Assembly (NCBI GenBank): GCA_017506865.1
Contig: JAFCMP010000525.1
Location: 124,001-188,000 of the forward strand
DNA from: Tribonema minus
Taxonomy: Eukaryota; Sar; Xanthophyceae; Tribonematales; Tribonemataceae
DNA length: 64,000 nucleotides
Reading direction: 5' to 3'
Both the position numbers and the translations under genes were made by a program. Every line of letters begins with the position of its first letter. The first letter of the stretch is position 1. The notes under the pieces were generated by a model. It worked only from the letters and a program-made list of their open reading frames with translations. It was not told the origin of the DNA and made no database searches. Positions 16,083 through 64,000 of the stretch are shown piece by piece.

Positions 16083-19000
16083 TTATGATGCACTGTCATC
16101 AACCGCTAAGAACGACGCACCGAGCAGCTCATCATATTTTCGCCGAACCTCCTGCGCGTCTACCCACGTCAGCCACTTGGGGCCGCCCTCATCCTGCTCA
16201 GCAAAAGGAACAATAGAGCACCAAGGCAGGGCAAATGTATAATAAAGTTAGCCAATGTACTCATTGTTAATGCCGGGCGCACGCACTGTGACCGCAATAC
16301 GTCAAGCCTGAAGTGCTCTTGCACCGTCATGCTTGACTCAGACAGTGCACTTTGAAGCACAAGGACACAAGAAAAAAAATTGCCGTCTGCTGGTAGGCCA
16401 CTAAAGTGCGGGCAGCCCTGAAGCACGGAGAACCTGCTGAGCTCATCCTTCTAACGGCACAGGCTGCAACAAAGCAAGAGGCCGCATCAAAGGTGATCCT
16501 TGCGCAATGAACGAGAATAAATGTGGCCAAACTCTGCTCCAAGCAGCAATTGAGGGAGTATTTCAGAACGGGGGCTCCAAGAATCACGCTGGGCAAGGTC
16601 CGACTTCAAACTCTCCAGTAGCAGAAGTGGGTGTGAAGTACTTTGAAATGTTGGAGGCAGTGCATCCTTGGGACTACTTTCCGTTGGTGGGGTTGCGCAG
16701 AAGGTACAAGTGATGGGACAAGTGCAGGATTCACATGGCTGTAGGACTGCGGTTTCTTGGCTTGGCGGAACACACGGAAGACCCTCAACGCATCAGCGGT
16801 TCTGGGCTCCCTCTGGACAGTACTTTGCCTTTCCAAATGTCCTTCTGTGTGGTGGCAAACCTTTCACCAAGGCCCTGCCATAAGGTGGCTGCAGGGCAAA
16901 CGCACGGGCAGCCGGTGTTTGTAGCGCACTCGACCGACACCTGCAACTCCCTGGCTGCCAGTCAGAATCTTCTTCATTGTTATTTCTAGGCAAATCCGTT
17001 GCTGGCGGTCTCACGTACCTTGGTGGGATTTCGCAGAAGGTAGGAGGGGTGAAACCACGGCATCGCCCACGTGGCCGCGGGCAGATCGGGCGTGGTGCCC
17101 GGCGCGTACCACTGGCCGCGCACCTTGGTGATCCCGCGCCGCTCGTTGAGCACTGCTCGCATGCTCCACCTGCCACGTGCACAAGCGTAGATACGCATAC
17201 TATAGTAAGACGCAATGACGCAAAGGCGCCGTAGGGCTGCAACTAACAACTTGAAGTACATTCATCAACATCCCGCACTGAGATGCTGCACCTGCCACGT
17301 GCACAAGCGGTACAGACGCATAAGACGCATTGCTCAGGCTGCAGCTATTATGTGGCTTCCTCAAGCGGTTTGTGGGGAGTTGCACCGAAATGCTCCACCT
17401 GCCACGTGCATGAGCGGCACACGCGCATACTAGTAGTAAGACGCACTGCTACAGGGCTGCCACTGACAAGTGCCTTCCTCAAGCAGGCTGTGGGATGTGG
17501 CACCGAAATGCTCCACCTGTCCCGTGCATGAGTGGTACATACGCATACTGTAGTCAGACGCATTGCTATAGGGATGCAACTCACAAAGATGCACTGACAT
17601 GCTCCACCTGCCACGTGCACGAGCGGTGCAGGCGCATATGAAGATGCATCGCCAAGGCTGCAAATAACCAGTGGCTTCCTCGGGCAGGTTGTGGGATGTC
17701 GCACCGAAATGCTCCACTTGCCATGTGCACGAGCGGTACAGACCCATAAGAAGCGTTGCTGAGGCTGCAGCTGACAAGTGACTTCCTCATGTAGGTTGTG
17801 GGATGTTGAACCAAAATGTACCACTGAGAGATGGGTTGCATCGTGCGCTTGTATGAGTAGTGGAGCAAGAAGATGACACCAACTCATATACATGTTCTGG
17901 CTTCCAGTATGTGATGGCATCGAACACATGAGCAGACCTTAAGTAGACAGTGATACACTTAAAGTATAGACTCACTGGTGACAGTTGCAAAACATCCGCA
18001 TGCAGTCAGAATCTGCTGCAGCACATCATGCATGCACAGGCCCCAAACCTGCTGGTATGACACCTTGGAAGCACCATGCCTTTCAAAACACTGCGGCCCC
18101 AGTTCTAGGAATTTTCTGAGTGTGAGGCTTTACTTCCAACCACCTGCCAACGTGCGCGCAGCACGCGCATCTCCAGAACACTCTATGCACTTATCCCTAT
18201 GTTCCCGTGGTGATGATGATGGCAGAATTCACCAGCCAATGAAGTGCATGCGCGGTTCACCAACCGCCTTAACAGAATCAAAGCAACATTTTAAATGCAT
18301 ACTTCGAAGTATGGTTTCCTGCCAGCAGGTTCTGACATACCTAACACGCTTTGCCGATGACTACATACCTGCCCGTTGTAATTATGATGGCAGGATTTAC
18401 CAGCCGAATCTCCTCCAGCAGCCACGGCCGGTAGTACGCAATCTCTGCAGTTGTGGGGTCCCTGTTCTCCGGGGGCCGCCTGCGCACGATGTTGCTCACA
18501 TACAGGTCGGTTTCCGGATCGAAGCCCGCTGCCTTTAAAATGGCATCCAGCAGCTGCAGGGGCGACAGGAGCAGGGTGGCGCGCGTGGCGTCACAAGACA
18601 AGAGCGGTGAGTGTTGATGCAGCATGTGATTGTAAGCTGCGGGGGCGACGGGAGCACGGGTGGTGCGCGTGGCGTCACAAGGCGAGAGTGGTGAGTACTG
18701 ATGCAGCATGCGATTGTATGCTACTTTCACAGAGCGGCGTTCCTGCTCCCTAGCAGCAGCCTGTATTGCCGGCGTGGACAATTGTGTTTGAGTTGGGTCA
18801 CAGATTCTTGCAGGGGCAATAAGATGCCACGGGCGGCACACGCCATGGCGCCACAGGAGTTGATAGTTGAGCCGTGATAGACACTGCATGTGCTGCGCAG
18901 CCACAGTCGCGATGCCTCTCTCCATGGTCTCCAATGTTTGCCACTTATAAACGTGCGCCACGCCACACAACTACATTTGAGCGAACCTGGCGGCAACGGG

Positions 19001-28763: not shown

Positions 28764-30448
28764 TCACAACTTGGTCTGAGAGTCTGACTGCCCAGTGCCC
28801 TCAGGCTGAGGCTCATGATCAGAAGGAGCATGTGCCTCCAATGCATCCATGAGGAACTGTTCCGTCGTGGGCATGCTTAGGGTATAACCGTGTGCTGCAC
28901 ACAGGTGCTGCTCCACCGTGCTTTGGTGTGCCACGCCACCACCAGCATGGCAGTCTGATTCGCGTGATTGCGCATGAAATGCTGCGTTGCCTCAGCTGCG
29001 TACACGCCCTGCTCGGTAACAAACGCCCTGTACAACAGCGGGTTGGTGGCTTTGAACACGGTGTGGTAGTCCCGCTGCAGCACATCGCGCGACAGCCAGC
29101 GCGATATCTGCAACGTGCGGCCCAGATGCCGCCGGTGCTGTGCCCACAGCGCCAGACGCTCCTGCCACTCAATATGTTTTCCTTCCTTCGATTTTTCCAC
29201 CCACACATACTCCGCTGCTTGATCAAGTCTCTTGTGTGGGTGCCACACGGCGCCTGGTTCCTGCACCAGCACGCCTGCAGCAGCTGGAACAAGTTGGCAT
29301 TAGAAGACTCCACAATTGCCCTGGCCATTGCCTGAGCCGTATGCATATAAGGTCTCCCCACGTACACTAGCGGTCGATGGAGAAAGGCTGCCGCTGCAGA
29401 TGCGCCTTGGGCGAAGGCACTCGTTGTTATTGCCGCGTTATTGTTGACCTTCTCGTCCCAGTACAAGCGTGTTGCATTTGATCCGAACTGCACACAAGGG
29501 GGGGGGGTGGGCCCCGGCCCGGGGGTAGGTATACAGGTGCAGCAGGCAGCACATGAGCCTGAACACCTGTGCATTGGTGAGTTGCTGCTTGGCTCAGCAA
29601 ATGGGTTTGGCAGTCTTACAGTCTAGAGCTGCTAACTTGAACAAGCAAGGGCCCAAAGGAATGAACAACATGCTTAAGCAACTGTCTTGTGATCATGTGT
29701 CACGATCTGCACAAAATGCCTGCAGCTGCAAGCATGCTTGACACTGGCTGCCTTCAAGTTGCTGGCAGCGGCTGCGCTATGAACACCGGCATTTCTGCTC
29801 CTCTCTGTGTATACATGTACTTCGAAGTATATGACTTGTGACTTCAAAACTTTTAGCCTGACATATGTTTGCATTAGGACGCACTTTGCGCTGTGTCTTG
29901 TGTCAAACACCCATATGTACAGTGCCTTGAAGTTCTGATTTCTGTCCAAATATAGGAGACTCACGTTACACCAGCCGAGGCTGACTGATCAGCCCGAACA
30001 TAACGGGCATCAATGACACACAATTGGTACCTTAAGATATTGTGAACCATGATGCTGGTTTTGTATCCATGAGTCACTTGTGATGCTACTGCCATAACAA
30101 TGCTGTGAATGCAACTGAGTTACAGCTGAAATATTATGCTGTGCACGTAACATAATAATGTGTGTTGTATGTAACAGGTCTGCCTTCAAGTTGGCGCACC
30201 TGTGCAATGTCTAGGATGACTGCGGTCATGCGAGTAAGTGCATACTTCGCCATGTACCGCAGCGTTTCCAGCGTGACGTCAGGACAATGGCCTGGCTTGG
30301 TCCCTGGCGCGTTGTTGTAAGCATCCCGGAATGTGACAGGGTCGGGCCTGATAAGTCCTGTCACCTCCGATCTCCAGACATCAGCGTCATTAACGTGAAT
30401 CTTGCCCCCCTCCTGGCTTGAAACTTTCAACACGCAGTACCCAATGCG

Positions 30449-35138: not shown

Positions 35139-36603
35139 CACTGGTGGTGTGAAGTATGGCTATCAGCTAGTTCAACTTTTGTTTTTTTCATGTTGTAGAC
35201 CCTTGCGTTCAGGTGAGAAAGTTGATGTTGCAGCAGTTTTTTTGAACGCAACTTTCGCGGATGACACGCAGCCGGAAGAGGTAGAAAAAAAACGTGACTG
35301 CCTGCTAGAGGCGACTGCCTCAATCAGTTTAACTGCGCGCCACACACATACTGATCCAGCATCAGCAGGGCAGCAAAAACTACATTGGCGCCATGCCTTC
35401 CGTCTGCTCATGCGTTGGTGAGAAAGTTGAAGTCTGCGCCTCTCGACGTGATCACGGGCTGCAGCACACACTTGATTGCTGAACTGACGGGAGGTAGACG
35501 TGCTGCTGCATGTCAAATTGCCTGTGAATTTCGCTGCGGATAAGTGAAACCGCCGACTGAACAAGTACGCAACTCTCAACGACGCGGGGCACTGGGCACC
35601 CACCGCTTTTGTGGGAGGAAAGATGCAATGCTATGCGATGCTCGGCATACAATACGCTGGCAGCTGCATATGCTCGTACCATAAGAGACCATTGCAAGAT
35701 TGGTCAAATGTGATTCTTGTATCCTTCTTCGAACTTTGTTCAGAATTCAGCTGGCCAAGTGGTCGCCACATGACGTGCTGCAGCTTGATTCATGTCCCTA
35801 CCAGCCTGGCTATCAGGCTGACAGATATAATGCCAGCCTGCGGGTCCTATACAAGCTTAAAGCGCTCAGTATGCTTCCATATTCTCACACTGTCACCATA
35901 TCATGATAGCTCAGAATCTGTTCGAGGCCCAGGCAGAAATCATTTTGTTAAGTAAGCGCCACAGCAATGGCGCTGCCTCAGCTTCTTGTTTGAATTGGCC
36001 ACACCGCAGCAGTGCCATCAACAAGTTCAATCATGAAGTCCGTCTGAACTTCAAGAGTTCCATGAGCGCATGGTGTAGTCTAGATGACATGTCAGACACT
36101 TGTCCAAGCTTGTACTGTAGCAATCAATTGACGTCAATTGGCACGCCTGCAGGCTGCTTTGCAGAAAGGCAGTAAGACACCGAGAGTGCCTGCACGTGCA
36201 GCTGTAACTGCACAAATCTGGTCAATCGGTGCTGGGGGCGGACCATCTCATGGGCGCGCTCAATAAAAGACTACTACTAACATCATAGCTTACACCCTGC
36301 CAGCAGTCACTGCGCCAGCCTGCTGAGCTTTTGCAGATTCTGACCAATTGACCTGGTGTTGTCTTTCATCTATTTCAAGTTGCCAACCTTGCTTATGAAT
36401 GTGACTGTTGTGCAAGCTGGCTAGTCAGCAGCTGTTGTGGGTAGCGGGCCAATGATTTTGCGAATGACTGCAACAGGGTGCTGCAGGGTGCACTGGCAGG
36501 GGCCTGGAGACTGTATCATGAGCGTACAGATCTGCTTTTAATATCACTGACAGGTAGACTTTGGTCAATTGACTTAAGCGGCAGCTCATAGCAAGTTGCC
36601 GCT
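35139..36603. other. spacer upstream of TraB-like copy 3 and family-A element
   Basis: No gene is recognised. One plus-strand segment (about 35199-35325, GEKVDVAAVFLNATFADDTQ) looks protein-like after TGTTGTAG, but I cannot link it to a model. Confidence 0.4.
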
Positions 36604-39600
36604 GTGCGTTGTCAGAGGGGGAGGGGGGCAAGCCTTCACATTCAGCCATGGTGCACCTCTGTGAGTGCACACACTGCACTGTATCTTGAGTCAGCCTGGA
36701 ACACTCAAGGCGGCGCGCGCGGCCCCGGCGCCCGCGCAGCTGCCGCTGTGGCTGCGGCAGGGCCAACATGGCGCAGCGCGCTTCCGCTCTGGACGCTGGC
36801 GCCGCTCTCGCCCGCGCGCGCAGCGCTTGACGACCTCTCCTTTGACTATGTTCTGCAGCAGCAACTGGTGGTCGGCCGCCGCATTCGGCTGGAGCACCGC
36901 TCGGACTTCACAGCCGCCATGACGGCCACGCTGGCGGGCCTCCGGGAAGCGCAGACGGCGGTAGCGCAGGCACACGGGGTTGAGGCAGCGGCAGAGGCGT
37001 CCGCCACAGCCAGTGCATGGTGCAAGCTGCTGCATCTGCTGCCGTGCCTGCTGCTTGTACCCGACGGCTCCCTGCCGCGGGCGCACCGTTTTGCGGCCTT
37101 CGTGGCAGGCGACCTGGACCTGCTCACGCGCACAGCGCTGGCCTTCTGCCGCCGCGGCGCCGCCCGTGCGTGCACGCGCCGCGCTAGGTCTATGACGGAG
37201 GCGGCGGCGGCAGTGCGGGAGCGCGCGGCGGCGACGGCGCGGCAGCCGGGCGGCGTCGGGCGCGCCGCGCGGCTGCTGGCGGAGGGTGCTGACACATCTG
37301 CCCCCCGCGACTCCGCTACCTTGCATAAACTGCAGGCTAAACACCCAGCTGGCGATGCGTCTGCGAAGCTGGATGCCGCGGCATCGCGGGCGCGCAGCTT
37401 GGTGGCGGCGGCGGCGCTGGCGGCGCCGGCACCACTCAACTGCGCTTCATTCACGGCGGACGGGGTAGTAGTACGCGAGGCCATCCTCGCCGCCAACCCT
37501 GGCTCGGCCGCCGGTCCCTCTGGGCTGCGCAACTCCCACCTCCAGCAGTGCGTCCGGCACACGGCGCACACGTCGGGGCGCACGGTTGACTGGCTCCTTG
37601 AGCTGCTGGCGTGGCTGGGTACCGCGGTGTACTCCACCCCCGCCGCGCTGCCCGCCCCCTTTTGGCGCCTTCACGCGGCCGCGCGCCTCAGCGCTGTGGG
37701 CGAGAAGGCGCGTCCCATCGCGTGCGGCGACACCATCCGCCGCCTGTTCGCGCGCACCTTCTGCACGGACACCCGGGACCGCGTCTCCGCGCTGCTGGAA
37801 CCAATTGGCCAGTTTGGGGTCGGCGCGCGGGGGGGCGCAGAGAGAGTGGCGCTCATGGCGCAGCTCACGCATGAGTGCGGCGGCGTGCTGCTTGCCATTG
37901 ACGGCAGCAACGCCTTCAACGCGCTGTCGCGCTCGGCAGTCCTCACCGCGGTGGCCGAGCATCTGCCTGGCCTGTACGGCTACGTCGAGCACATCTAGGG
38001 CCCCGGCCGGGCCCCTTGGCTACAATTTGGCCTAGATGGGCACGCCGACGCCGCCATCATCCTCTCCCAACAGGGCGTGCAGCAGGGCGACCCATTGGGG
38101 CCGCTGCTGTTCGCGCTGGCACTGCGCGGCACCATGGTGGCTGCCCGCGCCAAGTTCCCGCAACTGGCGCTTCCGGGCTACCTCGATGACCTCACCATCA
38201 TGACGCCCAGCTGTGACGCGCCAGTGCTCGGCCACGTTGGCCGCGCGTTCTGCTTCATACAACAGGCGCTGAGCGAGCTCAACATTCAGGTCAACGTCAC
38301 GAAATGCGCGGCGCTGGTGCCGGCCTCAGGCGGCGCCCGCGAGCGCGCCGCCGCCGTCTTTGCCGCCGCCAATGTCCCCGTACCAGTATGTGACGACGGC
38401 ATCACGCTGATGGGGGTGCCGGTCGGCACCGAGGGCTTCGTGCGCGCGCAAGTGGCGGCGACCCTTCGTGCCCCCGGCACCGACCGCCTGGTTGCGGAGC
38501 TTGTGCAGATGGAGGATGTGCAGGCTGCCTTCTCCATTCTGCGTCTTGCCGTCCCCGCCCGCGCAGGGCATGTCTCGCGCAATACAGCGCCATCCCTCAC
38601 GCACGAGGAGCTACGGCGCTTCGACGCCATCACGCTAGCGGCCGTGGCCGCGCTGGCGCAGGAGCCATCGGCGGGTCTTACGCCGCCGGCCCACCAGGGC
38701 GCGCCGGCGGCGGGTGACGATTGCCGCGGCCCGCCGGCGGTTTCGGCGGCGGCGGCGCCGCCCTCTCTGTGGGCGGCGGCAGTGGCATGGGTACGCGGCG
38801 CCGACTGGGGTGGCGAGGCCCCAGTGACGCTACCAGCACATCAGCAGGTACGCGTGCATCTGCGGCTGGGGAGTGGTGGCTTTGGCGTGCTGGGCGCGGC
38901 GCCCCGTGCATGTGCCGCATTTGCTGCACGTTCCCTCGAGTGCATGGGGCCGGCACTGGCGGCATTTCCAGTCGCGGCACGCAGCCGCGTCCTAGAGCAT
39001 GCCCGCTATGGCTTCACCTTCACCCAGATAGCTACCTGCCTGCAGCAGCTGCGCAGCGGCAGCGATGAGGCTGCAGCGACCCTCGCGCTGCTCCTGTTCA
39101 CGGTCTGGTACCAGGACTGGCGCCAGGACGACGGCGCATGGCGGGCGCTGCGCGATCTGCTGCAACGGGCAGGCGGAGCTGCGGGGCCGGGCATGCGGAC
39201 TCGCGCCGGCGCGCGCCGCGCTGCTGCGCCAGCGGTGGCGCGCGAGCCAGGCTCTGCCCAGGCCCCGCCGGCCGCCGTGCTGCCGCGGCGTCAAGCGGCG
39301 CTATCACGGGTGCTAGACGCAGTGCTCGCCGCCACGCAGCTGCGTCGGCTTGAAGCAGCAAATGCGTTGGAAGCAGTCGCGGCGTGGCGCAGCGGCGCCT
39401 CTAAGGGGGCCATGGGTTTCTTGGCGCAATTGCCGAGCACTGACCCAGCGGAGACCATGTCCCCGCCGGAATTCCGCGAGACGCTGCGGCGCCACCTGGG
39501 CGTGGAGCGCCCCGCCCCCGCTGCGGCGCGGTGCCCCAAGTGCCATAGACCAGTGGACTCGGGTGCCCACCTGCGCCGCTGCACACAAGGGCTTAACGTC

Positions 39601-40296
39601 ACGCGACACAACTTGCTCGCAGATGCGCTCTTTCAGCTGCTCAAGCAGGTGGCCCACCTCCGCGGTCTCGACCGGGACACCCTTGCCCCCTTCCGCCGCT
39701 ACGCGGCGCGCCACGGGTTCAACAAGTTCATGGACATCGTCTTTGGCAGCAACAAGGTCTGCCTTCCAGTCCCTAAAGTGCAGCCGAGCGCCGACGCGGT
39801 AGCAGCAGGCCGGTGCACTAAACTGCGCGGCGGCTTTGAAGTAGCTTGTTGCATAGACGTCACCATACGTGACAGCTCATGTCCCTCCCGCCTCCGTCAG
39901 GCTCAGGGGGGCGCACGCGATGTGCAGCGCGTGCTTGAATCGGCTTCGCAGGAAAAGATAGACACATACGTAGTCTCAGGGGCCCTGGACCCCACTACAC
40001 ACACCCTATTTTCCGCAGCCTTTGACCACTTCGGCGCTATGTCACGCGACACCCAAGCGCTGCTACACGCACTCGCCGAGCAGAGCTCGCAGGGCAGCTA
40101 CAATCTCGCGCAGCGCGTTGCCTTCTGGCGCCGCCGCACCTCCCTCGCGCTACAGCGCGCGCTCACACGTGTCGTGATCGACAACTGGAACGCAGTCATT
40201 GCCCCTGATGGCGACGTCAGCGCTTACCGCCGCATCGCACTGTTGCAAGTGCCGCGGCCCTCGCCGGCCAGCGCCGAACCGCCGGCCCCTCCGTAG
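36604..40296 (+). pseudogene. family-A polyprotein: RT, CCHC, restriction-like endonuclease (one in-frame stop)
   Basis: One frame of about 1230 codons is interrupted only by TAG at 37996-37998. The true start is uncertain. RT motifs in order: GSAAGPSGLRNSHLQQCV; VGEKARPIACGDTIRRLFAR; GQFGVGARGGAERVA; LLAIDGSNAFNALSR (catalytic Asp); stop; GVQQGDPLGPLLFALALRG; and GYLDDLTIM (YADD variant). Downstream come a CX2C-X8-H-X3-C motif (CPKCHRPVDSGAHLRRC) and VTRHNLLADALFQLL. The nuclease follows, with EVACCIDVTI then QEKIDTY; this D...K-X3-Y spacing is as in R2-type restriction-like endonucleases. Known members insert by target-primed reverse transcription. Copy 2 shares the natural end codon TAG at 40294-40296. 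Confidence 0.88.
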
Positions 40297-51974: not shown

Positions 51975-53345
51975 TGGCCTCATTTTTTGTTGATGGTTTC
52001 TTTTATGTCTTGGACCGCATGGGCAGAGCACATGATAAAACGGGCTTTGCGGTTACTATATCTACGGGGGAGCGGCGGCAGATTGGCGCTGGCAGGCGAG
52101 GGCCATGGCGCCTGCACCAGTGCAATGCAGCGATAAGCGCTGACATCGCCATCAGGGGTTATAACTGCGTTCCAGTTGTCAATCACAACACGTGTGAGCG
52201 CGCGCTGTAGCTGAGCGCGAAGGAGGTGCGGCGGTGCCAGAAGGCAATGCGCTGCGCAAGAGTGTAGCTGCCCTGGGAGCTGTGCGAGTGCGCATAGCAG
52301 CGCCTGGGTGTGGCGTGACATGCCGCCGAAGTGGTCAAAGGCGGCAAAAATGATTAGGGTGTGTGCAGTAGTGGGCCCTTGAGGCTATGTATGTGTCTAT
52401 ATTTTCCTACGAAGCCAGGTCAAGCACACACTGCACATTGCGCGCGCCCCCCTGAGCCTGACGGAGTTGGAAAGGGCAAGAACTGTCATCTACATGACAT
52501 CTATGCAACAGGCTGCTTCAAAGCCGCCGCGCAGCCTAGTGCACTGCCCTGCCGCTACTGCTTCTGCACTCGGCTGGCTGCACTTTTGAGACCGGGAGGC
52601 AGACCTGCCACTGGCAGTGGTTGCTGCCGAAGACGATGTCCATGAACTTGTTGAACCCGTGGCGCGCCGCGTAGCGGCGGAAGGGGGCAAGGGTGTCCTG
52701 GTTGAAACCGCGGAGGTGGGCCACCTGATTGAGCAGCTGAAAGAAATCGTCCGCAAGCAAGTTGTGTCGCGTGACATGAAGCACTTGTGTGCAGTGGCGC
52801 AGGTGCGCGCCTGAGTCCATTAGTTTATGGCACTTGGGGCACCGCGCGGCAGCGGGGCGGGGCGCTTCAAGCCCAGGTGGCGCCGCAGCGTCTTGCAAAA
52901 TGCAGACGGCGACAAGTCTCCACTGGGTGGGTGCTTGGTCATTGTGCCGAGAAACCTATGCCCCCCTTAGATGCGCCGCTGCGCCAAACCGCGACTGCTT
53001 CCAGCACATTTGCTGCCTCCAGCCGGCGCAGCTGCGTGGCGGCGAGCGCTGCGTCTAGCACAAGCGAGAGCGCCGCTTGACCCCGCGGCAGCACGGTGGC
53101 GGGGGGGGGCTGGGCAGAGCCTGGCTCGCGCGCTACCGCTGGTGGTGCGGCGGCGGCCGCCGGCGCGCGCGTCCCAGTCCCGCCCCGCGCTCCCCGCCCG
53201 TTGCAGCAGATCGCGCAGCGCCCGCCATGCACAGTCGTCCTGGCGTCAGTGCCGGTACCAGGCCGAGGGCAGGAACTGTGCAAAGGCCGCCGCGGCGTCT
53301 TCCGCCGCAGCACAGCTGCAGGCAGGTAACTCTGTGAAAAGGAGC
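51975..53345 (-). mobile_element. family-A non-LTR retrotransposon copy 3, decayed
   Basis: A minus-strand, 5'-truncated copy covering the same part as copy 2 but more diverged. Recognisable blocks: LPAAVLRR with DARTTVHGGRCAICC (other frame), VAREPGSAQ, CPKCHKLMDSGAHLRHC, RHNLLADDFFQLLNQVAHLR, RYAARHGFNKFMDIVFGSN and RVVIDNWNAVITPDGDVSAY. Several frameshifts break it. The 3' end reads GGTCCAAGACATAAAAGAAACC. The 5' flank contains GAACTTCAACAA, like the target of copy 2. Confidence 0.85.
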
Positions 53346-53543
53346 AACGCTTGTTGAAGTTCATGCATCTACTTCAACAACTGCTACTTGGAAAAGGTGT
53401 TCGGACTAGAGGGCAGTGGAGTGAAAGTGCGTGTGCGGTGTCCTGGCACTCTGTCACTCATCGTGGGGTGGTGACGGTGCCGCTGTGAGCAGCTGCGGAG
53501 CACGCCTCATTAAGCCTTTTCATCAACATCAAGTGAGAGCAGA

Positions 53544-56500
53544 ATGAAGAGAACAGAGATGGTGGAGTGCTGGTCCTGCGGAGGGCCGCACCACGAGGAC
53601 GACTGTCCTCGCCGGGTGGTGCTGCTCCCACGACAGGCAGTGACTCGGGCGTCTGACGCTGAGGATGCCGGTGGTGCGCTGATGGTGGATCCTTGGGAGC
53701 TACGCTCGCGAACTGCTCGGGAGCCGCGGCCGCTGCTGCTGAGCGACAGGGAGGAAGCGTCGGGATCATCACAGCTGATTTCCTCAACTTCTTTCACAGC
53801 GCGAACACCAGGTCGGTGTTGTGCTCGGCACATCAGAAAATCTCAAGACTGCATGTCTCACGGTCATTCTGACATGACACACACCAAGAAACACAGCTGC
53901 TTGGCAGCAAGTGACAGCTGTGGATCAGTTGCAGTATGCCTCGGACGCAAATTTTTATTTTGAGTGCGCGTTTTTACGTGCTTTGAAGTCAACTAAGTCC
54001 AGTATTCCAGCACGTCGCTCACGGATTACCAAACAACAGCTGCTGCGTGGCTTCTATTTGGGGTTTACCGAGACGTTGCGAATTAGTTTATTGTCAGAGG
54101 TTTTGTTATTGACAGTTGATTACACATATGTCATACATACTAGACAAAAAAGACGGATTGCGGCCAATACTATGTCCCTGAGCAATGCTAGGCAAAGTTG
54201 AAGTGCCAGTGACATTTGACAACATCAGGCAGACATGTTGCTGTGGCGATGAACACTCTCCAGGAGCATTGAAGGCGTGAACGCTGCACTGCCAGCCTCT
54301 GCCATGCATCATGTCATTACTGTGCACTGTTGTGGCATGGGAGAACTGGCACACAACAGCAGAGCATTGTGTCGATGGAACGCTTAGGTCCAACGCACGT
54401 GCTCGCGCCAGACACGTTCGCTGTGCGTCCACACCGCTATCAGCAGCGCTCAACAGCCATCTGACGTCACGCGCGGGGGCAATAATGCGCGCGGCCAGTT
54501 TTGCGTGCAGGACCAGCACCTCAGCGCGCTCCACGCGCAGTGCATATGCTCTATTCTTGAACAAGCGTCACAGGTCGCTCTTCACAACATGCTCACGGAT
54601 CAGACGCGTTCGCTGTGACGCACTTTACAACAGCGCTCAGCAGCCAGCTGGCGCCGCGCAGCGGCCAGCGTCGCGTGCACGAGCAGCGCCTCAGTGCGTT
54701 CCACGCGGCCGTGCGCGCGTCCGTGGACCTGCCGGCGATCATCCGCGCGGCAGCGCTCCACGCGCTCGGCGACCTCGCGGCGCTGCCTCAGGTATGAACG
54801 CTGTCACGTTGTGTTCTGCTGGCAGTAGCGTGTGGTAGGCGTAGAGTTCTGCTGAAATCTTGTTGATGTAGCGAACTTGACCCGCACAGTCAGCGCTCCA
54901 TGCGGCGACCTCGCGGCGCTGCCTCAGGCATGAGTGCGCTGTCGCGTGCGTGCTGCGCTGTTTTGTGCTCACAGCAGTGTGTGTGCTCGGCGAAGAGTCT
55001 GCTGAGATTTTGCTGATGTAGCACGATGGACCGCACGTGTCTGTGCGTCAGGGCTCCACGCGCTCGGCGACCTCGCGGTGAGCGCTTTCGCGTGCGCGCT
55101 TTCGCGTGCGCGCTGCGGTGTCTTCTCTGCTGGTAGTAGCGTGTGTGGTAGGCGCATACATAGAGTCTGCTGGAATTTTGTTGTAGTCGCGCGATTGACG
55201 CGCACGTGAGCGCTCGACGAGGCTCTGCATCAGGTACATGTGAGCATGAAGAGTGTCTGCCGCGTGGGCAGCGCAGCGCGAGCGCGGCGTGGACCAGTCT
55301 TAGCTATCAAAACTTGCGTACATACCGCTGGCGCGCGGTGACGCCCGCACATCCGCCGCAATGCACCGCGCCCTTGATCATGATATCATGTTGGTGACGT
55401 CATATGACTTTGCTGGCGGTGCGAGACGGATGCCGTCGCAGCGTCGCGCGCCCGCCCAGCCTGACATGCGCGGCCCTGCGCCACCGCGCGGCGCTCGTTT
55501 CTGACAGCCTGAGGAAGGCGCACTGAGACATGCGCATGGTGGCTTCACACTGGCGGGCTCAGCGGCGGCCGCAGCGGCGGCCGCGCTCGTCTCAATCGAA
55601 AAACACAGGCACATGCACGCCTCGGGCCCTTTGCAACACTGTGTACTGGACTTGCTCGCGTCGCTCAATGCACAAAAGGCTGAGCGCTGCAACGAGCGAA
55701 AGCGCACGCGCGCGCAGGCGCGCCACCCTCCCACGGCGGCGGCGCTCTTGCAGTCTCTCCCGCATGCGCATGCGGACGGGGCCACGCACAACTGCGCACA
55801 ACAGTCGTCCATGCAGAATCATCAATTGAATAGCACCGAGCATATATGTATCGTCACTGATGCGCTGCGCACAACATTCATCCGTACGGAAGTACCAACA
55901 GCTGGGCTTTTTCGCGCCCTGAGCGAGAATTAATAAAAGTTACTAATGGAACTGATCCAAAAGACCATAGAGCCCTAGGTGACAAGGTGTGGTTAGCCGT
56001 AAGTGCCTTCCACAATGACCGGGGTCGCCGCTGCTGCAGCCATCGGCCACGAGTCAATCAGTGCCACCATATCCACTAATGGTATTGACCGTCTCTGTAT
56101 CGTTGGTGCGCGTACGCAGGTGCGCCGCGCGGCGGGAATGGCGGCGGCGGCGGCGGCGATCTGGGCGTGGGGGCACCCGAGCGTGGCGGCGCTGCTGCTG
56201 GTGGCCGCGGGGGGGGTGCTGGTGGCGGCGGGGCGCGGGCACGCACGCGGAGCGCAGGATTGGGCTGTTGAGGCAGTGCTCAACGCCCTGACGCGAGGTA
56301 TGATGGGCCAGGATTCACAAGCGTGCTGTAATGTGTGCCGCAGCCGTGCACTTTGATTTGGCGGCGGCGGGGTGCGGGCTCGGCGCGCAGGAACGGGCCG
56401 TTGAGGCAGTGCTGCTTAACACCCTGACGCGAGGTGGGATGTTGGGGGGTACACAGAAGAGTGTACTGCCGGGGCTATCGCAGGCTTGTACTTCTGACGC

Positions 56501-59500
56501 ACGTACTCAGAATAGATGCTTCACAGTTCACTACTTGAAGTATACGTTGAACGGCGTTGAAGTGTTCGCTCGGCCGATATGGGTACGTTCATAATGAGGG
56601 GCTGCTGGCGGTCGCGGGGGGGGCGCTGTTGGCGGCGGGGCGCGCGGCGCGCAGAACGGGGACGTGGAGGCAGTGCTCAACGCCCTGACGCGAGGTAAGA
56701 AGCATGTGAAGACTTGAGTGTACTTCAGAGTACACACTACGGTGTCATGGTGCTGTAGCCATGCGCTTCAGTGCACCGTGTGCTTCATTCTGTATGTGGA
56801 ATTTACAGGGCACGTTGAGGTGCGGACGATCGCTCAGTAGATGCGCGCAGTTGCACGCTGCCGCGCTGCTGCTGGTGGTGGGGCGGGGGCACGCGCGTAG
56901 TGTGCGAGAGTGGGCTGTGGAAGCAGCGCTTATCGCCCTGGCTGAAGTTGCGATGCTGAGAGCCATTGATAAGCGTACTGCCGTGTGTACCGCAGGCATA
57001 TGTGCTTCGATGTACATGCTTGGAGTATGCGCTTCACGCAGTATTGTAGCTACAATGTACCTCGAAGCATGTTGAATTGAGGGTAGTTGCTCAGTATATG
57101 TGTGTAGTTGCGCGTGGGTGAGGGGCCGCTAGTGGCCGGGGGGGGGGGGGGGGGGGGGGGGGGCTGACGGCGGCGGGGCGCAGACGCGCGCGCGGCGCAC
57201 AGGATTGGGCTCATCTCCCTCTTGCACGGCTTGATGCCGATGTGTGTTAGGGCAATGAGTACGGCGTGGGCACGTAATTCAGTGTACCTTGTATGCTGAA
57301 TACTATTATGTTCGCAAATGTATTGGCAATGAGGCATTTTCAGGCAGCCGCAACTCTGCTGTGCCAGGTAAAACTTGGCGCTGCCCGTTCAATGCGGCGT
57401 GGCAGTGAAGGAAGCGCGCGCGTGCAGTGCTGGCGGCGCGAAAAAAGTGGAGCGCTGTCTGGGTTGAATGGCTGCTGCTTCTTTCACGCATGCATGGTCG
57501 GCCCATGGGATACATACCCATTCACTGCAAGCATCTCATCACGCACTGAGGCCGCGCATGTCAGCCCTGAGCGCGCCTGCGCGCAGCGCGCAATTCCGCA
57601 GCAGCAGAGGGCGAGAGCGACACTTTCTGCTGCCTATTTGCAATGCAGCAGTGGACTGTGATGCTGACCTCACTAAGGTGCTGAGCACTGTGTCTGTATG
57701 CATGTATGTGTGTATGCACCTGCGGCGGTTGCAGGCAAGGACCTGGACCTGAACTCTCTCTGTCCCTAATAACCGGGTCAACCATGTCATCTCATGCTGC
57801 TGGTGCATCACTCACGTGCCTGCGGCTGTGGCACTGTGGTGCGCGGCATGCATTGGAAGAACGGTAGTACGAGTGTCATTGATGTCGCCGCGGTGCATGA
57901 CACTCAACATACCAACAGTAGAAGAAGTTTCAATGATGGTATTGACGAAATGTTGAGCGTTATGTACGGTGCCATATTTGCAGGCAAGGACGTGTGGATC
58001 TGAACTCTCGCCTATTGCCGCTTCAACCATGTCATATCATGCTGCTGGCTTACGCATGAGTCCTGCGGCCTTGCCATTGTGGTGCGCTGTACACATTGCG
58101 AACAACAGTAATAGTAGACTCAATGATGACATTGAGAATGCATATGGTGCGCATGCGACGTTTGCAGGCAAGGATGATGTTCACAATGCTGATCTCTGCG
58201 CCGGTTTGCTGCGAACACAATGACGACAGGCAAGGACGTGGACCTGAACTCGCTGCGCGCTACTCGGCGTGCGGCCATGGCGCTCGCCGCCGCGCCCACG
58301 CTGCTGAGCATTGCTGGCATGGTGACGCTCATGGACACCATTGGCCTCATAGGTGCGCACTCACATGGAAACGGATCAAAAGATCGTAGAGCGCTAGGTG
58401 ACAAGGTGTGATTAGCCGCAAATGCCTCTCACCAATAACCGTGGTTGCCGCTGCTGCATGTTTCACCATTACGTGCAGTACCACATACTACATCAAGTAG
58501 AGTAGGGGCAGCATTTGTCTTGCTCGTGAACACCATTGGCCTTATGGCTGCGCGTGGGCCTTATAGGTGTGCATGCCATTGTTTGTCACTGTCGTGTGCA
58601 GTCTTGCATACCCATGAAGTGGGAAAGAGGCCACTGGCAACCGTGCTTTGATCGTCATGTGACTTGCGTTTACCCTCATGCTGCTGAGCGTTGCCGGCAC
58701 GGTCATGCTCAATGAACGCCATTGAACTCATAGGTGCGCACTGCCCAGACAATGATGCTGGTGTGCCGCGCGCCGTTTGTAAAAATGAAAAACAAATCAA
58801 AAAGATCGTTGAGCTCTAAGTGACAAAGGATGGTTAGCCGCAAGTGCCTTCCACCAATAAGCGTGGTCGCCGCTGCTGCAGGCATTGGCCACGAGTCAAA
58901 CAGTGCCACCATAACCACAGTAGGCAAAAAGACTGCTGTGTGCAAGCTTTTTAGCGTTCGAGGCATGGGTGTTCAGTATGGACAGGTCTCACGTGTTTGG
59001 TAGGCCAGCTCCAGCCGGCAGCCCAACATAAAAATGTTATGTTTGGAGTACTGCGTATTTGTGAATACTGAAGAAAACTTCTTTTTTCCGTCATCAGTGG
59101 TCATGCCGCTGAGCGTTACTGGCATGATGATGCTCATGAACTCCTAGGTTCGCGGGTGCGCACTGCTGAGATGATGGCCGTATTGCTGATACTGTCGTGG
59201 CGCACATCGTGTTGAAAACTGCCATTTTCAGAGTGCTGCATATCTTTTGAACCAGATGTGCTGTGCATTGGCATGGTGACGCTAATGAACATTCTGGGCC
59301 TTATGGCTTGCACAGGCAGTCTTTCATACTACATGAAGTAGGCAGCATGCATTAGTGCTTGTAAGCCGACACTGTTGAGCATCGCCACCATGGTGATGCT
59401 CATGCGCTCATGAACCATACTGGCACTGCTGCGACTACAATGATGTTGTTCTGCGCGTCACTTTCGAAGTACTGCGCATTTTGTGAACTAGTGTGGTGTG

Positions 59501-61885
59501 CTAGTTGTGGTGTGCAAACCCGCGTGAACACCATTGGCCTCCTCCACGCGCATTGCGTAAATGTTGCGATTGTTCAACACACCGAGTTCGCCATCTTGCA
59601 TTGATATTGGCACGTTCATGCTGGCGGGTACCACTGACCTCATACGTGCGCGCCGCCGCCCTAACCCTAACTGCAGACACAATCCTGCATCACACCATTG
59701 CATTATGTTGCTTGAAATACTTCACTGAAGTAGGTACAGCATGTAATGTACCCTTGACCTAAGCCTCTGCGGTTGACCTGCTCTGTGAACTACCACCGCT
59801 ACTGCCACTGCCAGCTCTGGCTTCAGTACATTTCACGTGCTTGCGCTGGCTGCAGTGCTCTGCGCGTTGTCTGCATGCGCAGTGGCAGCACAGAACGCAT
59901 GCCTGCGTGACTGCCGAATTGTGGGTGCATGCGCACCCCGTCGCTCACAGCATCGCCAGCGCTGCTGTGCTCTGTAGCACACACCGCCTGCATGATGTCA
60001 ATGCGCACTCACGGACTTGCAGTTCTTGTTTTTGATTGTTTTACAGTCGTGCTCACAATGCTTGACCTGACAATGCGCACTCACGGACTTGCAGTTCTTG
60101 TTTTTGATTGTTTTACAGTCGTGCTCACAATGCTTGACCTGACAACACTGTGAGCGAGATATTTCAGCTTGTCATATTTGCTCAATACAGCCATGGTTTG
60201 TATGCGCATGCGCAGGTTCGGCATCAGCGGCGGCCGCTGTGTCCGCCGCCATGACGCTGGCGGCGCTGGCGTACTGCGTCGCGGCATGCGCGGCAGCACG
60301 GCGATTGAATGCACCGCCCGGTCCCCACTCGCTTCACCTGCGCATTCTGAAGGTACTGGATGCAATGCTCTTTGAAAAGCATGCGTTCCGTGTCATCCTC
60401 TACCATGCGCTTTGCTGAACATACTTCATACCCTGTATTTTATCCTTCATTAGCACTGGCGCGGCAGTCGAACGCAGCGCCTGGGCCTCTTCCTGGGCAT
60501 GTTCAAGGTGCTGGATACTTCTTGAAGTACTCACCATGTATGCGTTTCATCACACCCTCTACCATACGCTGTACCAGACATGCGCCGTACTCCCTACGCT
60601 ATACTTCACCTGTGTTGGCGCAGTGATCGAACACGGCGCACTCCCTCTACCTGGGCACGCTCAAGGTACTGGGCACATGCTATGCATTTCGTGACGCCCG
60701 CTACCACATGCTGTGCCAAACATATGTTGTACTTGAAGTACCCCCTATGCTATACTTGTGTTGGCGCGGCGGTCGAACGCGGCGCGGCCTCGCCCCTCTA
60801 CCAGCGCATTCTGAAGGTACTGGATGCAACACTCCTTCAGAAGTGATGCATCTTGTCGCACCCTACCATACGCTGTGCCAGACATATCTCCTCTACCCAT
60901 CACTGACATTGATGCGGCGATCGCACATGGCGCCTGGGCCGTCTATCTGCGCATGCTCACTGTGCTGGACACTCTCACTCTCCTTCCAGCGCGCTTGTCC
61001 CGAATCGTCATGCACAGCGCTCAGCCGGCAGGCGGCGCCAACTGCACGCCGTGATTTGCCGTGGCACTTGCGGCATAGTTGCTCAGAATAGGCTGGCATC
61101 AGCACGCCAGCAGTGCTTCCGTAACTACCACCTTGCGCCACGCGCAAAGTTCCGCTCAGACCTTCGTACGACACTGCTGCGTGCACATGTGCAGTTGCGG
61201 GCGTGACACTATAAGTGCTCAACACGCGGCCTCGTGCCCGCGTGGCACAGCATTCCTCTGCAGCGCTGAACACAGTCTCCCCCCCCCCCCCCCCTTCCAG
61301 GCAGCTGTCCTGGTACTCCTCATCAGCGCCCTAGCACTCGGGCACGGACACGTGCATGCCTGGCATGACCCACACTACAAAGTATTCTGAGCACTATCTC
61401 ACTGTGCCCGCCAAACCGCCCTGGTGCTCCGCAGCTGTCCTGGTACGCGCCTAACCCTAACCCTAACCCTCATCAGCGCCCTCGCGGCGGTCGCGCTCGG
61501 CCGCGGCCACGTGTAACAGCATCCCTCTGCAGCGCTGAATACAGTCTCAGCCCCCCTCCCCTCCCCTTTCCCTCCCCCCCCCCCCCCCCCCCCCGGCAGC
61601 TGTCCTGGTACGCCACCCCCCTCACCAGCGCCCTCACTCCCCGGAATGACGCATACTCCGGAGTATTCCAAGCACCACCTCACTGCCCCCCCCCCCCCCC
61701 CTTCCCGCGCGCAGCTGGCCTGGTACGCCATCCTCCTCACCAGCGCCCTCATCGCCCTAGTCCTCGGCCACGGCCACCTGCACGCGTGGGACTGGGCCGT
61801 TGCGCGCCGCTTCGCCGTGTCAGCGCTCCTCACAGGCGCGCATCACGCGCTCGCGACTACAGTCTCACCCCCCCCCCCCCCCCCC

Positions 61886-61926
<41 letters not shown>

Positions 61927-64000
61927 AGCTCTCCTGGTACGCCATCCTCCTCACCAGCGCCCTCATCGCGCTAGCCCTCGGCCACGGCCACCTGCACGCA
62001 TGGGACTGGGCCATTGCGCGCCGCTTCGCCGTGTCAGCGCTCCTCACCGGCGCGCACCACGCGCTCGCGGCGCTGCCGCAGGGCGCCGCGACGGGCGCCG
62101 CGCGCCGCGGCCTCGCGCGCGCGCTCGATGACGCGTTCACGGGCGTGCGCGAGCAGCTGACGGCGGATGCGCTGCTGCAGCTGGCGCTCGTCAGGTGAGA
62201 GATGGTGACATCTGCAGTACTTCCAGGTACTTGATGTACAATTGTGATTAAAGGTCGATGCTGCGATACGCCGCGCGCCGCGGCCTCGCGCGTGCGCTCG
62301 ATGATGCGTTCACCGGCGTGCGCGAGCAGCTGATGGCGGACGCGCTGCTGCAGCTGGCGCTCGTCAGGTGAGAGATGTCAGTCGATGGCGGCTTCGTGCT
62401 CTCCGACGCCCCGCCCCGCGTGGTGGTGGTATCGCGAGTGCACATGTGACGTGCCCAGTCACCTATGGCCTCACACTGTAGGACTACACGTTGCTGTAGA
62501 GCTTTAGGTTGTACCTTATTAAGAAGATGTTGTGCAATGTTGATTTGGGCCAATGCTACGGCTGCCGCGCGGCGCGCCCTCGCCCGCGCACTCGATGAAG
62601 CCTTCACGAGCGTGCGCGAGCAGCTGCCGGCGGACGCGCTGCTGCAGCTGGCGCTCGTCATTGCGAAGAGTTTGGTGATGGCAACGCCCTGCTCGCTCAG
62701 GTGCTGCGATCGCGGCGCCCAACGCGGCCAGTCGTCTATGGTTTCGCATTGAAATTGACATACCGTATTATCTATAATTAAGCCCATGGGGCGAGTTTTT
62801 TATGAGTTTCCGAGCCCTCATGAATTGACGCCCCACCCTTAATTTTCGCTCATATAAATATGCCCCCCCCCTTCATTCTCACATGCATACGCAGCATGTA
62901 CCCTCTGCGTACGTGTACTATGCACACTCAGTGACTCATGCTACATGACCACATTATGTGTGCGCCTGCATGCGCTGTCAGCAACGTGCAGAGCAGACAT
63001 AAAGGCAGCCAACAATGTAGCCAGACCCACAAAAAGGCTCCGAGAGGCAGCAGCTGGCTTTCCGAAAGTTGAACTGGTTTCAGGAGCGGCTCAGAAGCAT
63101 GCTGGCACCTCATGATGGTGTCAGATGAGCTAAAATGGCTCAAACATTAAATCACCCCACCCTTTTTTTCTCCAAATATTTAATGGCGCCCCACCCCCCT
63201 TTTTTCGCTCTCATAAAAAACTCGCCCCATGGGCTTAATTATAGATACTACGATAGTTCTTGAAATTCATTCTACACCTCTAGTTGTAAAACATGACTGC
63301 AATTCTGATTTGGGTCAATGCTACGATGTGACGGGCGCCGCGGAGTGCTTGCTCTTGCGGTACCTGCGAGAGGGGGACCATCGGTTGCTTGCCATCGGGG
63401 GGCGCGCCACAGAGTGCATCACTACATTAGTATGCGCTGGCGCAGTGACTGGGCCAGGTTTTCAACCTTACAGTGACGGCATCAACGCGAACTCAAATTA
63501 TCTTTGCAAGTTAGAGCGTAGTGCAGCGCATGCAGCGCCCTCTTCTGGCAGGCGTGTTGGCTGCCCCCCCGCCTCCCCCCCCCCGCGCTCCAACCTCCCC
63601 CCCTCCCGCCCCCCCCCCCCCGTCTTGACCTCACTGCCCCCCCCCCCCCTTCCTCCGGCCCCTGCCCCCCCGCCAGGTGGCTGGTGGACTTCTGGGCGGC
63701 GCCGGAGGAGTTCAGCTGGGACGACATGCGGGCCATGCTCGCGCAGGCCGTGGACACCGTGCGCACAGAGGTGAGCGCTGCTGCTGCTGCTGCTGCTGAG
63801 CACTGCTGCTGCAGGCGAGCAGCGTCTATGTATTGTATTTGCGACATAAGCGCCATGCTCGCACGGGCTGTGGATACCGTGCGGGCAGACGTGAGCACTG
63901 CTGCTGCCGCTGAGCGCTGCTGCTGCAGGCGAGCGGTGTCCACTGTATTTGCGACATAAGCGCCATGCTTGCGTGGGCTGTGGACACTGTGCGGGCAAAG
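53544..64000 (+). CDS. multi-exon polytopic membrane protein of unknown function (continues past window)
   Basis: Exons 54634-54791, 56120-56297, 58230-58352, 60216-60352, 61929-62194 and 63677-63770 join in phase across five GT-AG introns (phases 0, 1, 1, 0, 2) with no stop. They encode, in order: LSAFHAAVRASVDLPAIIRA and LHALGDLAALPQ; hydrophobic SVAALLLVAAGGVLVAAGRG; KDVDLNSLRATRRAAMALAA and LLSIAGMVTLMDTIGLIG; AAMTLAALAYCVAACAAARR; SWYAILLTSALIALALGHGH with WDWAIARRFAVSALL and LARALDDAFTGVREQL; and WLVDFWAAPEEFSWDDMRAM. That makes about five membrane segments. A possible first exon (53544-53811) starts MKRTEMVECWSCGGPHHEDD, a zinc-knuckle-like CX2CX4HX3C, and also joins in phase, but is weaker. 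I do not recognise the family. Each intron is filled with decayed copies of neighbouring exons. Confidence 0.65.
54415..55205 (+). repeat. decayed copies of exon 54634-54791
   Basis: Upstream, 54415-54560 repeats CGTTCGCTGTG, CAGCGCTCAACAGCC and CACCTCAGCGCGCTCCACGCG in exon order. Downstream, the exon end plus donor recurs at about 54893-54928 (GGCGACCTCGCGGCGCTGCC) and 55050-55085 (CTCCACGCGCTCGGCGACCT). Between them are three copies of an intron block (GAGTCTGCTGAGATTTTG and variants) about 150 bp apart. Confidence 0.75.
56360..57240 (+). repeat. four decayed copies of the 3' part of exon 56120-56297
   Basis: Copies lie at about 56360-56432, 56600-56698, 56853-56950 and 57113-57215, spaced roughly 245-260 bp. 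Each keeps pieces of GGCGGCGGGGCGCGGGCACG, GAGGCAGTGCTCAACGCCCT and, in the first two, the donor context GACGCGAGGT. Divergence increases with distance from the exon. Confidence 0.82.
57138..57163 (+). repeat. G26 homopolymer
   Basis: An uninterrupted run of 26 G lies inside the last decayed copy of exon 56120-56297. It corresponds to the shorter G runs of that exon (GCGGGGGGGGTGC). Confidence 0.95.
57720..59650 (+). repeat. decayed copies of exon 58230-58352 on both sides
   Basis: Upstream 5'-end copies (GCAGGCAAGGACSTGGACCT-like) lie near 57726, 57978 and 58164. Downstream 3'-end copies (CTGAGCRTTGCYGGCAYGGT, ATGCTCATGAAC, CATTGGCCTCATAGGTGCGC-like) lie near 58680, 59103, 59263, 59366, 59523 and 59605. 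The upstream series carries the acceptor and the downstream series the donor. Confidence 0.78.
59659..59671. repeat. short telomere-like repeat CCCTAACCCTAAC
   Basis: Two CCCTAA units directly follow a decayed exon copy (CTCATACGTGCGCGCCGCCG). Confidence 0.8.
60006..60143. repeat. 68-bp perfect tandem duplication
   Basis: CACTCACGGACTTGCAGTTC through GTGCTCACAATGCTTGACCT occurs twice in direct succession (60006 and 60074), with no differences seen. Confidence 0.9.
60290..60990 (+). repeat. exon 60216-60352 plus four decayed tandem copies of its 3' end
   Basis: Units of about 145-165 bp start near 60290, 60455, 60612, 60757 and 60910. Each carries GGCGCGGCGGTCGAACGCGG-like sequence, TACCTGCGCATTCTGAAGGT-like exon end plus donor, then CTACCATACGCTGTGCCAGA in the intron part. 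The first unit is the functional exon. Confidence 0.88.
61240..61858 (+). repeat. four decayed copies upstream of exon 61929-62194
   Basis: Copies of the acceptor and 5' part (CAGCTGTCCTGGTACGCCAT, CTCATCAGCGCCCT, GGCCACGGCCACCTGCACGC) lie at about 61292-61355, 61430-61520, 61600-61650 and 61708-61858. Most are preceded by GCGCTGAACACAGTCTC-like sequence and a C run. The copy nearest the exon is the longest and best preserved. Confidence 0.88.
61450..61470. repeat. interstitial telomere-like repeat (CCCTAA)3
   Basis: CCTAACCCTAACCCTAACCC and one more T replace ATCCTCCTCAC between TGGTACGC and CATCAGCGCC of a decayed exon copy. Confidence 0.9.
61868..61926 (+). repeat. near-pure C59 tract ending at a 3' splice site
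   Basis: Eighteen C, one T and forty C run directly into the acceptor AG of exon 61929-62194, so this homopolymer is that intron's pyrimidine tract. Shorter C runs precede the decayed copies at about 61279, 61576 and 61687. Confidence 0.9.
62262..62680 (+). repeat. two copies of the 3' half of exon 61929-62194
   Basis: 62265-62372 repeats GCCGCGCGCCGCGGCCTCGC through GCTGGCGCTCGTCAGGTGAG, nearly unchanged and with the donor. 62555-62670 is a second copy whose donor is lost (GCTCGTCATTGCGAAGAG). The first could act as an alternative exon end if an acceptor is present. Confidence 0.88.
62771..63245. mobile_element. 475-bp MITE with 36-bp terminal inverted repeats
   Basis: Left TIR 62771-62806 starts TCTATAATTAAGCCCATGGG; the right TIR 63210-63245 is its perfect reverse complement. 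TA lies on both sides (62769-62770 and 63246-63247), the target duplication typical of Tc1/mariner-type elements. There is no coding capacity. Subterminal GCGCCCCACCC / TTTTCGCTC blocks occur near both ends. It sits in the last recognised intron of the membrane-protein gene. Confidence 0.87.
63846..64000 (+). repeat. decayed copies of exon 63677-63770
   Basis: 63851-63891 (GCCATGCTCGCACGGGCTGT ... GTGCGGGCAGAC then GTGAGC) and 63961-64000 (GCCATGCTTGCGTGGGCTGT ...) repeat the exon end with its donor. The array continues past the window. Confidence 0.85.

Follow-up and report, generated by a model that had tools for sequence, protein, structure and literature searches.

Tandem duplication is an accepted route of intron gain (PMC3443670), and a gene of potato acquired a new, spliced intron when a single tandem duplication crossed one of its intron-exon boundaries, as shown by RNA and outgroups (PMC4974935). 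Break repair offers a second point of comparison, as a summary of work in rice describes insertions of 10-1000 bp that are tandem, partly tandem, or templated by sequence no more than 200 bp away from the break (Vaughn and Bennetzen 2014, via PMC7407515). Exon arrays are described for the LRR genes of Tetrahymena as well; these are arrays of whole 90-bp exons (PMC6564038), unlike the copies considered here.

Here we describe a gene of Tribonema minus (Xanthophyceae) in which exons are accompanied by partial, decayed copies of their own edges in the adjoining introns. As in the potato gene (PMC4974935), direct tandem duplications cross an intron-exon boundary and carry splice signals with them, but instead of a single duplication there are many per gene, decayed and in several genes, and instead of a new intron we see enlarged existing ones, with no sign of new introns. 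A first-pass annotation of this DNA knew no standard name for the pattern, which is only partly right, as the potato duplication is a known relative. Single duplications of this kind are already known; the density across genes appears to be new, in that no report of genome-wide decayed exon-edge copies in introns was found among the literature matches listed, with most subscription papers outside the scope.

Results

The window, a stretch of 64,000 nucleotides, is part of an assembly of 158 Mb in 554 contigs, and positions 52500-64000 together with 8 kb beyond were read for exon chaining. Chaining by hand gave a gene of 11 exons, all GT-AG and in phase, with a predicted product of 1698 residues; seven exons lie inside the window (Table 1) and four past its end. 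The only stop is the terminal one, in agreement with the first-pass annotation, which had the exons joining in phase without internal stops. A start of exon 2 at 54662 broke the frame and was dropped. By eye, exon 1 contains a CxxC..H..C motif. For the first 657 of the 1698 residues, a protein search of limited sensitivity returned no relative at E 0.001 among the 7994 candidates sharing most words, and no Pfam family was matched by the same residues. The case for a real gene therefore comes from its reading phase, from its splice sites and from the codon-position test given below.

Table 1. Exons of the window gene and copies of their edges, with one intron-only duplication. Scores are from alignment with the gene's own intron; positions are those of the window.
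Feature	Position	Strand	Observation
Exon 1	53544..53811	+	in-phase chain; start codon
Exon 2 acceptor-side copy	54397..54537	+	85% identical; score 67, control maximum 32
Exon 2	54634..54791	+	in-phase chain
Exon 2 donor copy 1	54882..54956	+	score 76, control maximum 26
Exon 2 donor copy 2	55045..55154	+	score 66
Exon 3	56120..56297	+	in-phase chain
Exon 3 donor copy 1	56359..56441	+	score 85, control maximum 25
Exon 3 donor copy 2	56625..56700	+	own-intron alignment; GTAAGA kept
Exon 3 donor copy 3	56868..56995	+	own-intron alignment; donor lost
Exon 3 donor-side copy 4	57169..57211	+	weak; score 36
Exon 4 acceptor copy 1	57732..57759	+	score 46, control maximum 34
Exon 4 acceptor copy 2	57981..58007	+	score 38
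Exon 4	58230..58352	+	in-phase chain
Exon 4 donor copy	58522..58553	+	score 39, below that junction's control maximum of 60 (dispersed repeat)
Exon 4 donor copy	58677..58742	+	GTGCGC kept; score 75
Exon 4 donor copy	59102..59164	+	score 51
Exon 4 donor-side copy	59259..59304	+	score 43
Exon 4 donor-side copy	59365..59404	+	score 40
Young intron-only duplication	59999..60145	+	period 72; 100% identical; 3-nt overlap at join
Exon 5	60216..60352	+	in-phase chain
Exon 5 donor copy	60639..60681	+	score 37
Exon 5 donor copy	60800..60874	+	score 66, control maximum 26
Exon 6 acceptor copy	61303..61363	+	score 44
Exon 6 acceptor-side copy	61468..61513	+	CCCTAA run (61450-61470) abuts its start
Exon 6 acceptor copy	61598..61636	+	score 55
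Exon 6 acceptor copy	61713..61855	+	about 95% identical; own-intron alignment
Exon 6	61929..62194	+	in-phase chain
Exon 6 donor copy	62269..62377	+	exon part 95% identical; GTGAGAGATG kept
Exon 6 donor-side copy	62555..62660	+	donor lost
Exon 7	63677..63770	+	in-phase chain
Exon 7 donor copy	63842..63940	+	GTGAGC kept; homology continues into intron
Exon 7 donor copy 2	63952..64000	+	runs 7 bp past window end

We aligned each junction (80 nt of exon and 60 nt of intron, less where exons are short) to its own intron, and 11 of 20 junctions, in 9 of the 10 introns, gave scores of 37-142 and matched that intron better than every control run for the same junction. None of the dinucleotide-shuffled introns (50 x 20 trials) reached 36, the highest score being 34, so that similarity does lie above that of shuffled sequence, as the first-pass annotation required. 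Introns at least two away, or the reversed intron, gave a median of 21.5 over 164 comparisons, a 99th percentile of 34 and a maximum of 60, the last of which we attribute to a dispersed repeat common to introns 2 and 4. The weakest matching junction, the acceptor of intron 8 outside the window, is close to its controls (37 vs a maximum of 35), and at the exon 1 donor alignment with its own intron found no copies. A single mobile element as the source of the copies is unsupported by the comparisons with other and reversed introns; nor do we see one element common to many introns, as with introners, since the copies are local and only the one dispersed repeat occurs in introns 2 and 4. This repeat lies at 55890-56000, 58378-58458 and 58800-58880 and has at least 43 other matches in the genome. 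A 25th match, at 58790-58826, consists of intron sequence only and is part of it, and was excluded from the 24 copies counted within the window.

These 24 copies are partial, 67-96% identical, and affect all of exons 2-7, much as had been described (about 20 copies beside six exons). Other parts of the description need correction. The copies were said always to span the splice junction; 14 of 24 reach 5 nt or more past it in each direction and so, together with the head-to-tail arrays given below, fit the boundary-containing direct repeats expected of tandem duplication across splice boundaries, while the other 10 end about 3 nt or less from the junction or contain exon sequence only, some having been shortened by poly-C masking. 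A fall of similarity with distance is not supported, the nearer copy being the more similar in 12 of 23 pairs from two genes, the less similar in 9 and tied in 2. Periods of 100-260 bp describe the spacing of neighbouring copies often enough, but the distance from copy to true junction ranges from 120 to 1071 bp. Finally, to call the introns exon debris is too strong, with 14% of intron bases of this gene in copy units that include exon sequence and 28% in any local direct repeat.

Across the window as a whole, repeats no more than 1 kb apart are direct rather than inverted (45 vs 1 at 40 bits or more, 18 vs 0 at 80 bits or more). Outside the gene, tandem arrays at 17275-17825 (about 107-118 bp) and 18552-18722 (84 bp) have a similar style of local duplication. 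Long poly-C runs stand directly before exon 6 (61868-61926) and before one of its copies (about 61575-61597, by eye), and a poly-G run (57138-57163) precedes an exon 3 copy. Intron 6 holds 46-bp inverted-repeat arms (62761-62806 and 63210-63255, 96% complementary, 403 bp apart) that look like those of a small transposable insert. Elsewhere in the window, the ORFs at 5416-6105, 13997-14596 and 28819-29622 have similar protein stretches in common by eye and are perhaps copies of one gene; the first of them has no Pfam match.

Local duplication is not confined to this gene. In a genome sample of 20 10-kb stretches on 11 contigs, taken at round-number positions and thus not a true random draw, local direct repeats were present in 18 of 20 stretches (mean cover 12% of bases as a hand average, range 0-48%) and inverted ones in 3 of 20. 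The stretch with the highest cover, L013, contains a myosin gene on the minus strand, recognised by its matches to PDB myosins and Pfam. Its exons were set by homology, and five algal and metagenome relatives are consistent with those joins that they cover, apart from small gaps. Of 120 listed relatives, two JGI metagenome proteins rank first (67-68%), followed by brown algae (about 50%); judged from this one gene, the genome is probably of a photosynthetic stramenopile close to brown algae. In this gene 11 of 12 tested junctions match their own intron, with scores of 52-131 against a control maximum of 36. Exon sequence is included at 10 of the 11, the matches at the exon E acceptor covering the intron side only, and 38% of intron bases are in copy units with exon sequence, 56% in any local direct repeat. 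Own-intron copies also occur at 3 of 8 junctions of an ABC-transporter gene (L021) and at 2 of 2 junctions of a TBC-domain exon (L030). The myosin, TBC and ABC loci were picked for high repeat cover (48%, 42% and 16%), so their junction counts are no unbiased rate, to which the segment counts below come nearer. Pfam scans of the plus strands of L013 and L016 and the minus strand of L017 returned no family.

To obtain such counts, 82 coding segments in 24 stretches were picked by a codon model that made no use of repeats; its training set was the window gene plus the myosin gene, the former being left out of the sidedness test and the latter kept. Copies of the last 60 nt lay downstream of the segment in 14 of 71 cases and upstream in 0 of 73. 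For the first 60 nt, 10 of 71 segments had a copy upstream and 2 of 70 had one downstream, and for the segment middle 4 of 71 had one downstream and 0 of 72 had one upstream, whereas reverse and reverse-complement controls gave 0 or 1 of about 70 each. Edges were thus copied on their own side in 24 of 142 cases and on the wrong side in 2 of 143 (Fisher p 2e-6), which extends to other genes the earlier observation that acceptor copies lie upstream and donor copies downstream. A looser coding threshold gave 19/152 vs 4/153. Without the myosin locus the contrast between sides holds (14/129 vs 2/130; 5' edge 6/65 upstream and 2/63 downstream, 3' edge 8/64 downstream and 0/67 upstream), but that between edge and middle is weak downstream (middle 4/64 downstream, 0/66 upstream).

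This sidedness follows by itself whenever a duplicated stretch reaches from within an exon into the intron. A rival reading is that breaks or duplications are targeted to exon edges, for example by DNA damage coupled to transcription or splicing, with a preference for splice junctions built into the process. Local repeats do cover more sequence within 600 bp of coding segments (15.3%) than farther away (9.9%) or within the segments (6.5%), and exon-intron pairs exceed the number obtained with rotated exon positions both in the window gene and in the myosin gene, taken as two genes (18 vs 8.6 and 18 vs 12.4, reached by fractions of 0.008 and 0.05 of rotations). The excess is nevertheless modest, and part of it is what one would expect from selection and from the fact that pairs with one frozen half stay visible for longer; junction-containing pairs alone are weakly enriched (fractions of 0.07 and 0.11), and L014, with no coding segment at threshold, has 27% cover. 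Exon-exon pairs number 0 in the myosin gene against 5.4 expected by rotation, and 1 against 1.7 in the window gene, where there is no clear depletion. Arrays that ignore splice junctions had been named in advance as an observation against the exon-edge pattern, and such arrays do occur, with 9.9% cover far from coding segments. Because arrays occur away from coding segments, the process is probably not, or weakly, aimed at exon edges, and we consider targeting unlikely. We prefer a general process, in which much of the apparent concentration at exon edges is due to selection and visibility.

If a copy is neutral and the exon beside it is constrained, mismatch rates at the three codon positions should be 1x, 1x and nearly 2x. 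The rates in 37 copies from the window and myosin genes are 8.7, 8.8 and 15.6% (p 1.4e-5), and the excess at position 3 is present in each gene alone (p 5e-4 in the window gene, 4e-3 in the myosin gene). Among indels in the same copies 19 of 22 are frame-shifting, and 12 of 37 copies carry a frame-shifting indel or a stop. Judged from these sequence comparisons, the copies appear to decay near-neutrally while the exons stay constrained, in keeping with the earlier view that the gene is alive, and the position-3 excess is the best evidence that the chained frame of the window gene is translated.

Might the copies instead be used as alternative splice sites or exons, selected for protein or regulatory variety? 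In 17 copies that reach the junction and are readable, by eye, GT or AG is kept in 13, and in-frame stops are rare (1 of 37 copies). Few stops are expected in short GC-rich copies, however, and the retention of GT or AG is about what neutral decay alone gives at about 90% identity. Divergence at positions 1 and 2 is roughly half that at position 3, as it should be if only the exon is constrained, most indels disrupt the frame, and the five aligned myosin relatives show no such extra pieces at the joins. Donor copies, moreover, start mid-exon and lack an acceptor, which rules them out as exons in their own right. Tandemly duplicated exons that are spliced in a mutually exclusive way are complete, with a splice site at each end and a frame that stays open. 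Exon sequence repeated within an intron is common to both situations, but the copies here are partial, one-sided and apparently neutral, and in view of their mostly frame-shifting indels we reject whole exons as alternatives. We regard alternative use in general as quite improbable; the duplications lengthen introns and leave spare splice sites, as had been proposed, and these sites probably go unused.

The anatomy of the repeats points to events at the level of DNA. Within 1 kb there are 245 direct and 10 inverted local pairs, as expected of patch-mediated break repair, in which copies are direct and close to their source. Several arrays align over at least one full period (period 140 over 326 columns, 149 over 345 and 138 over 229), and these, together with copies in which homology continues through the junction into the intron (at least 40 nt of it in 9 of 31), identify DNA-level, often head-to-tail duplication, repeated across splice junctions in a living gene as the first-pass annotation had it. 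Among 37 high-identity pairs, some of whose alignments are shortened by strict scoring, 3 have clean head-to-tail joins with an overlap of 1-3 nt; many other young copies are separated by unrelated sequence, for which plain tandem duplication needs filler or later deletion.

Copying through RNA would have pieces of pre-mRNA or mRNA reverse-transcribed into the intron of origin. The window does have long ORFs at 36592-40296, a probable retroelement, the second of which matches reverse transcriptase (PF00078), and 14 of 31 copies have at most 10 nt of aligned intron, some only through indels. The copies that run far into the intron and the arrays that exceed one full period nevertheless require DNA or unspliced sequence, intron-only arrays and arrays far from coding segments exist, and none of the copies was noticed to cross a join of two exons; we hold this route to be very improbable. 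An assembly artefact from collapsed or mis-joined haplotypes or reads, to which the few pairs of 99-100% identity might point, is hardly credible for partial copies of 67-96% identity with codon-position structure and for direct local repeats that recur in nearly all sampled stretches on 11 contigs.

Discussion

We consider it likely that the introns hold the debris of many short local direct duplications that originated in break repair and were filtered by selection. A stretch of roughly 50-300 bp would be copied in direct orientation, either head to tail with the original or at a short distance from it, most likely through the filling-in and end joining of a staggered double-strand break, and the process would be active in many parts of the genome. 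Where one end of the duplication falls in an exon and the other in an intron, the gene would survive, as the intact exon retains its own junction and the extra partial copy falls on the intron side, upstream for acceptor copies and downstream for donor copies. Copies wholly within exons would be removed by selection. Exon-edge copies should also remain recognisable longer than intron-only ones, as selection keeps the exon member of the pair from changing. Introns may thus lengthen as fragments of their own exon edges accumulate in them, fragments that are dead as coding sequence though often still with GT or AG.

As in the rice summary (PMC7407515), the copies are tandem and partly tandem, direct, and drawn from within a few hundred bp. 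Unlike there, a repair origin is read here from the anatomy of one genome, where three clean joins are too few to prove end joining, and the pile-up of present copies at exon edges is unmentioned in that summary (PMC7407515).

Short telomere-type runs are a mark of break repair in mammals (PMC7215372). Our sample of 292 kb has 48 TTAGGG/CCCTAA runs in 17 of 24 loci. Telomere-type 9-mers are the most over-represented of those seen at least 40 times, with a count of 281 against 7-70 for nine other units of the same composition. Runs lie within array spans in 14 of 48 cases against 6.2 expected (p 0.0025, which is optimistic since runs cluster). Spacers between copies are not enriched in them (7 of 101 vs a mean of 5.0 and a maximum of 11), so spacers as their carriers are unsupported. 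In the window there are runs at 61450-61470 and 59659-59671, and in the reverse complement of L013 near 5946 and 2767. Two coincide with true myosin splice sites, a donor GTTAGGG after one exon and an acceptor CCCTAACCCTAG before another, and some true splice sites look telomere-derived. Such short runs inside chromosomes resemble the interstitial telomeric sequences inserted at breaks (PMC7215372). It is a tentative idea, which we think rather doubtful, that in this lineage a single mode of break repair, local direct duplication with telomere-type filler, is a main source of intron growth and a supplier of splice signals, its products repeatedly rewriting exon edges while leaving genes intact.

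To our knowledge, intron lengthening without transposons is poorly documented, because inserted DNA usually cannot be traced to an origin. In the present case the origin is the exon next to it; the frozen sequence of that exon is an aid in dating each copy and sets the copy's frame, and such density lets the duplication rate, the decay and the tolerance of splice decoys be measured directly. The presence of near copies allows one to ask how the spliceosome selects the true site, and it carries the warning that in genomes of this kind gene prediction may string decoy pieces of exons together. Local duplications that cut across exon edges show one way in which introns grow.
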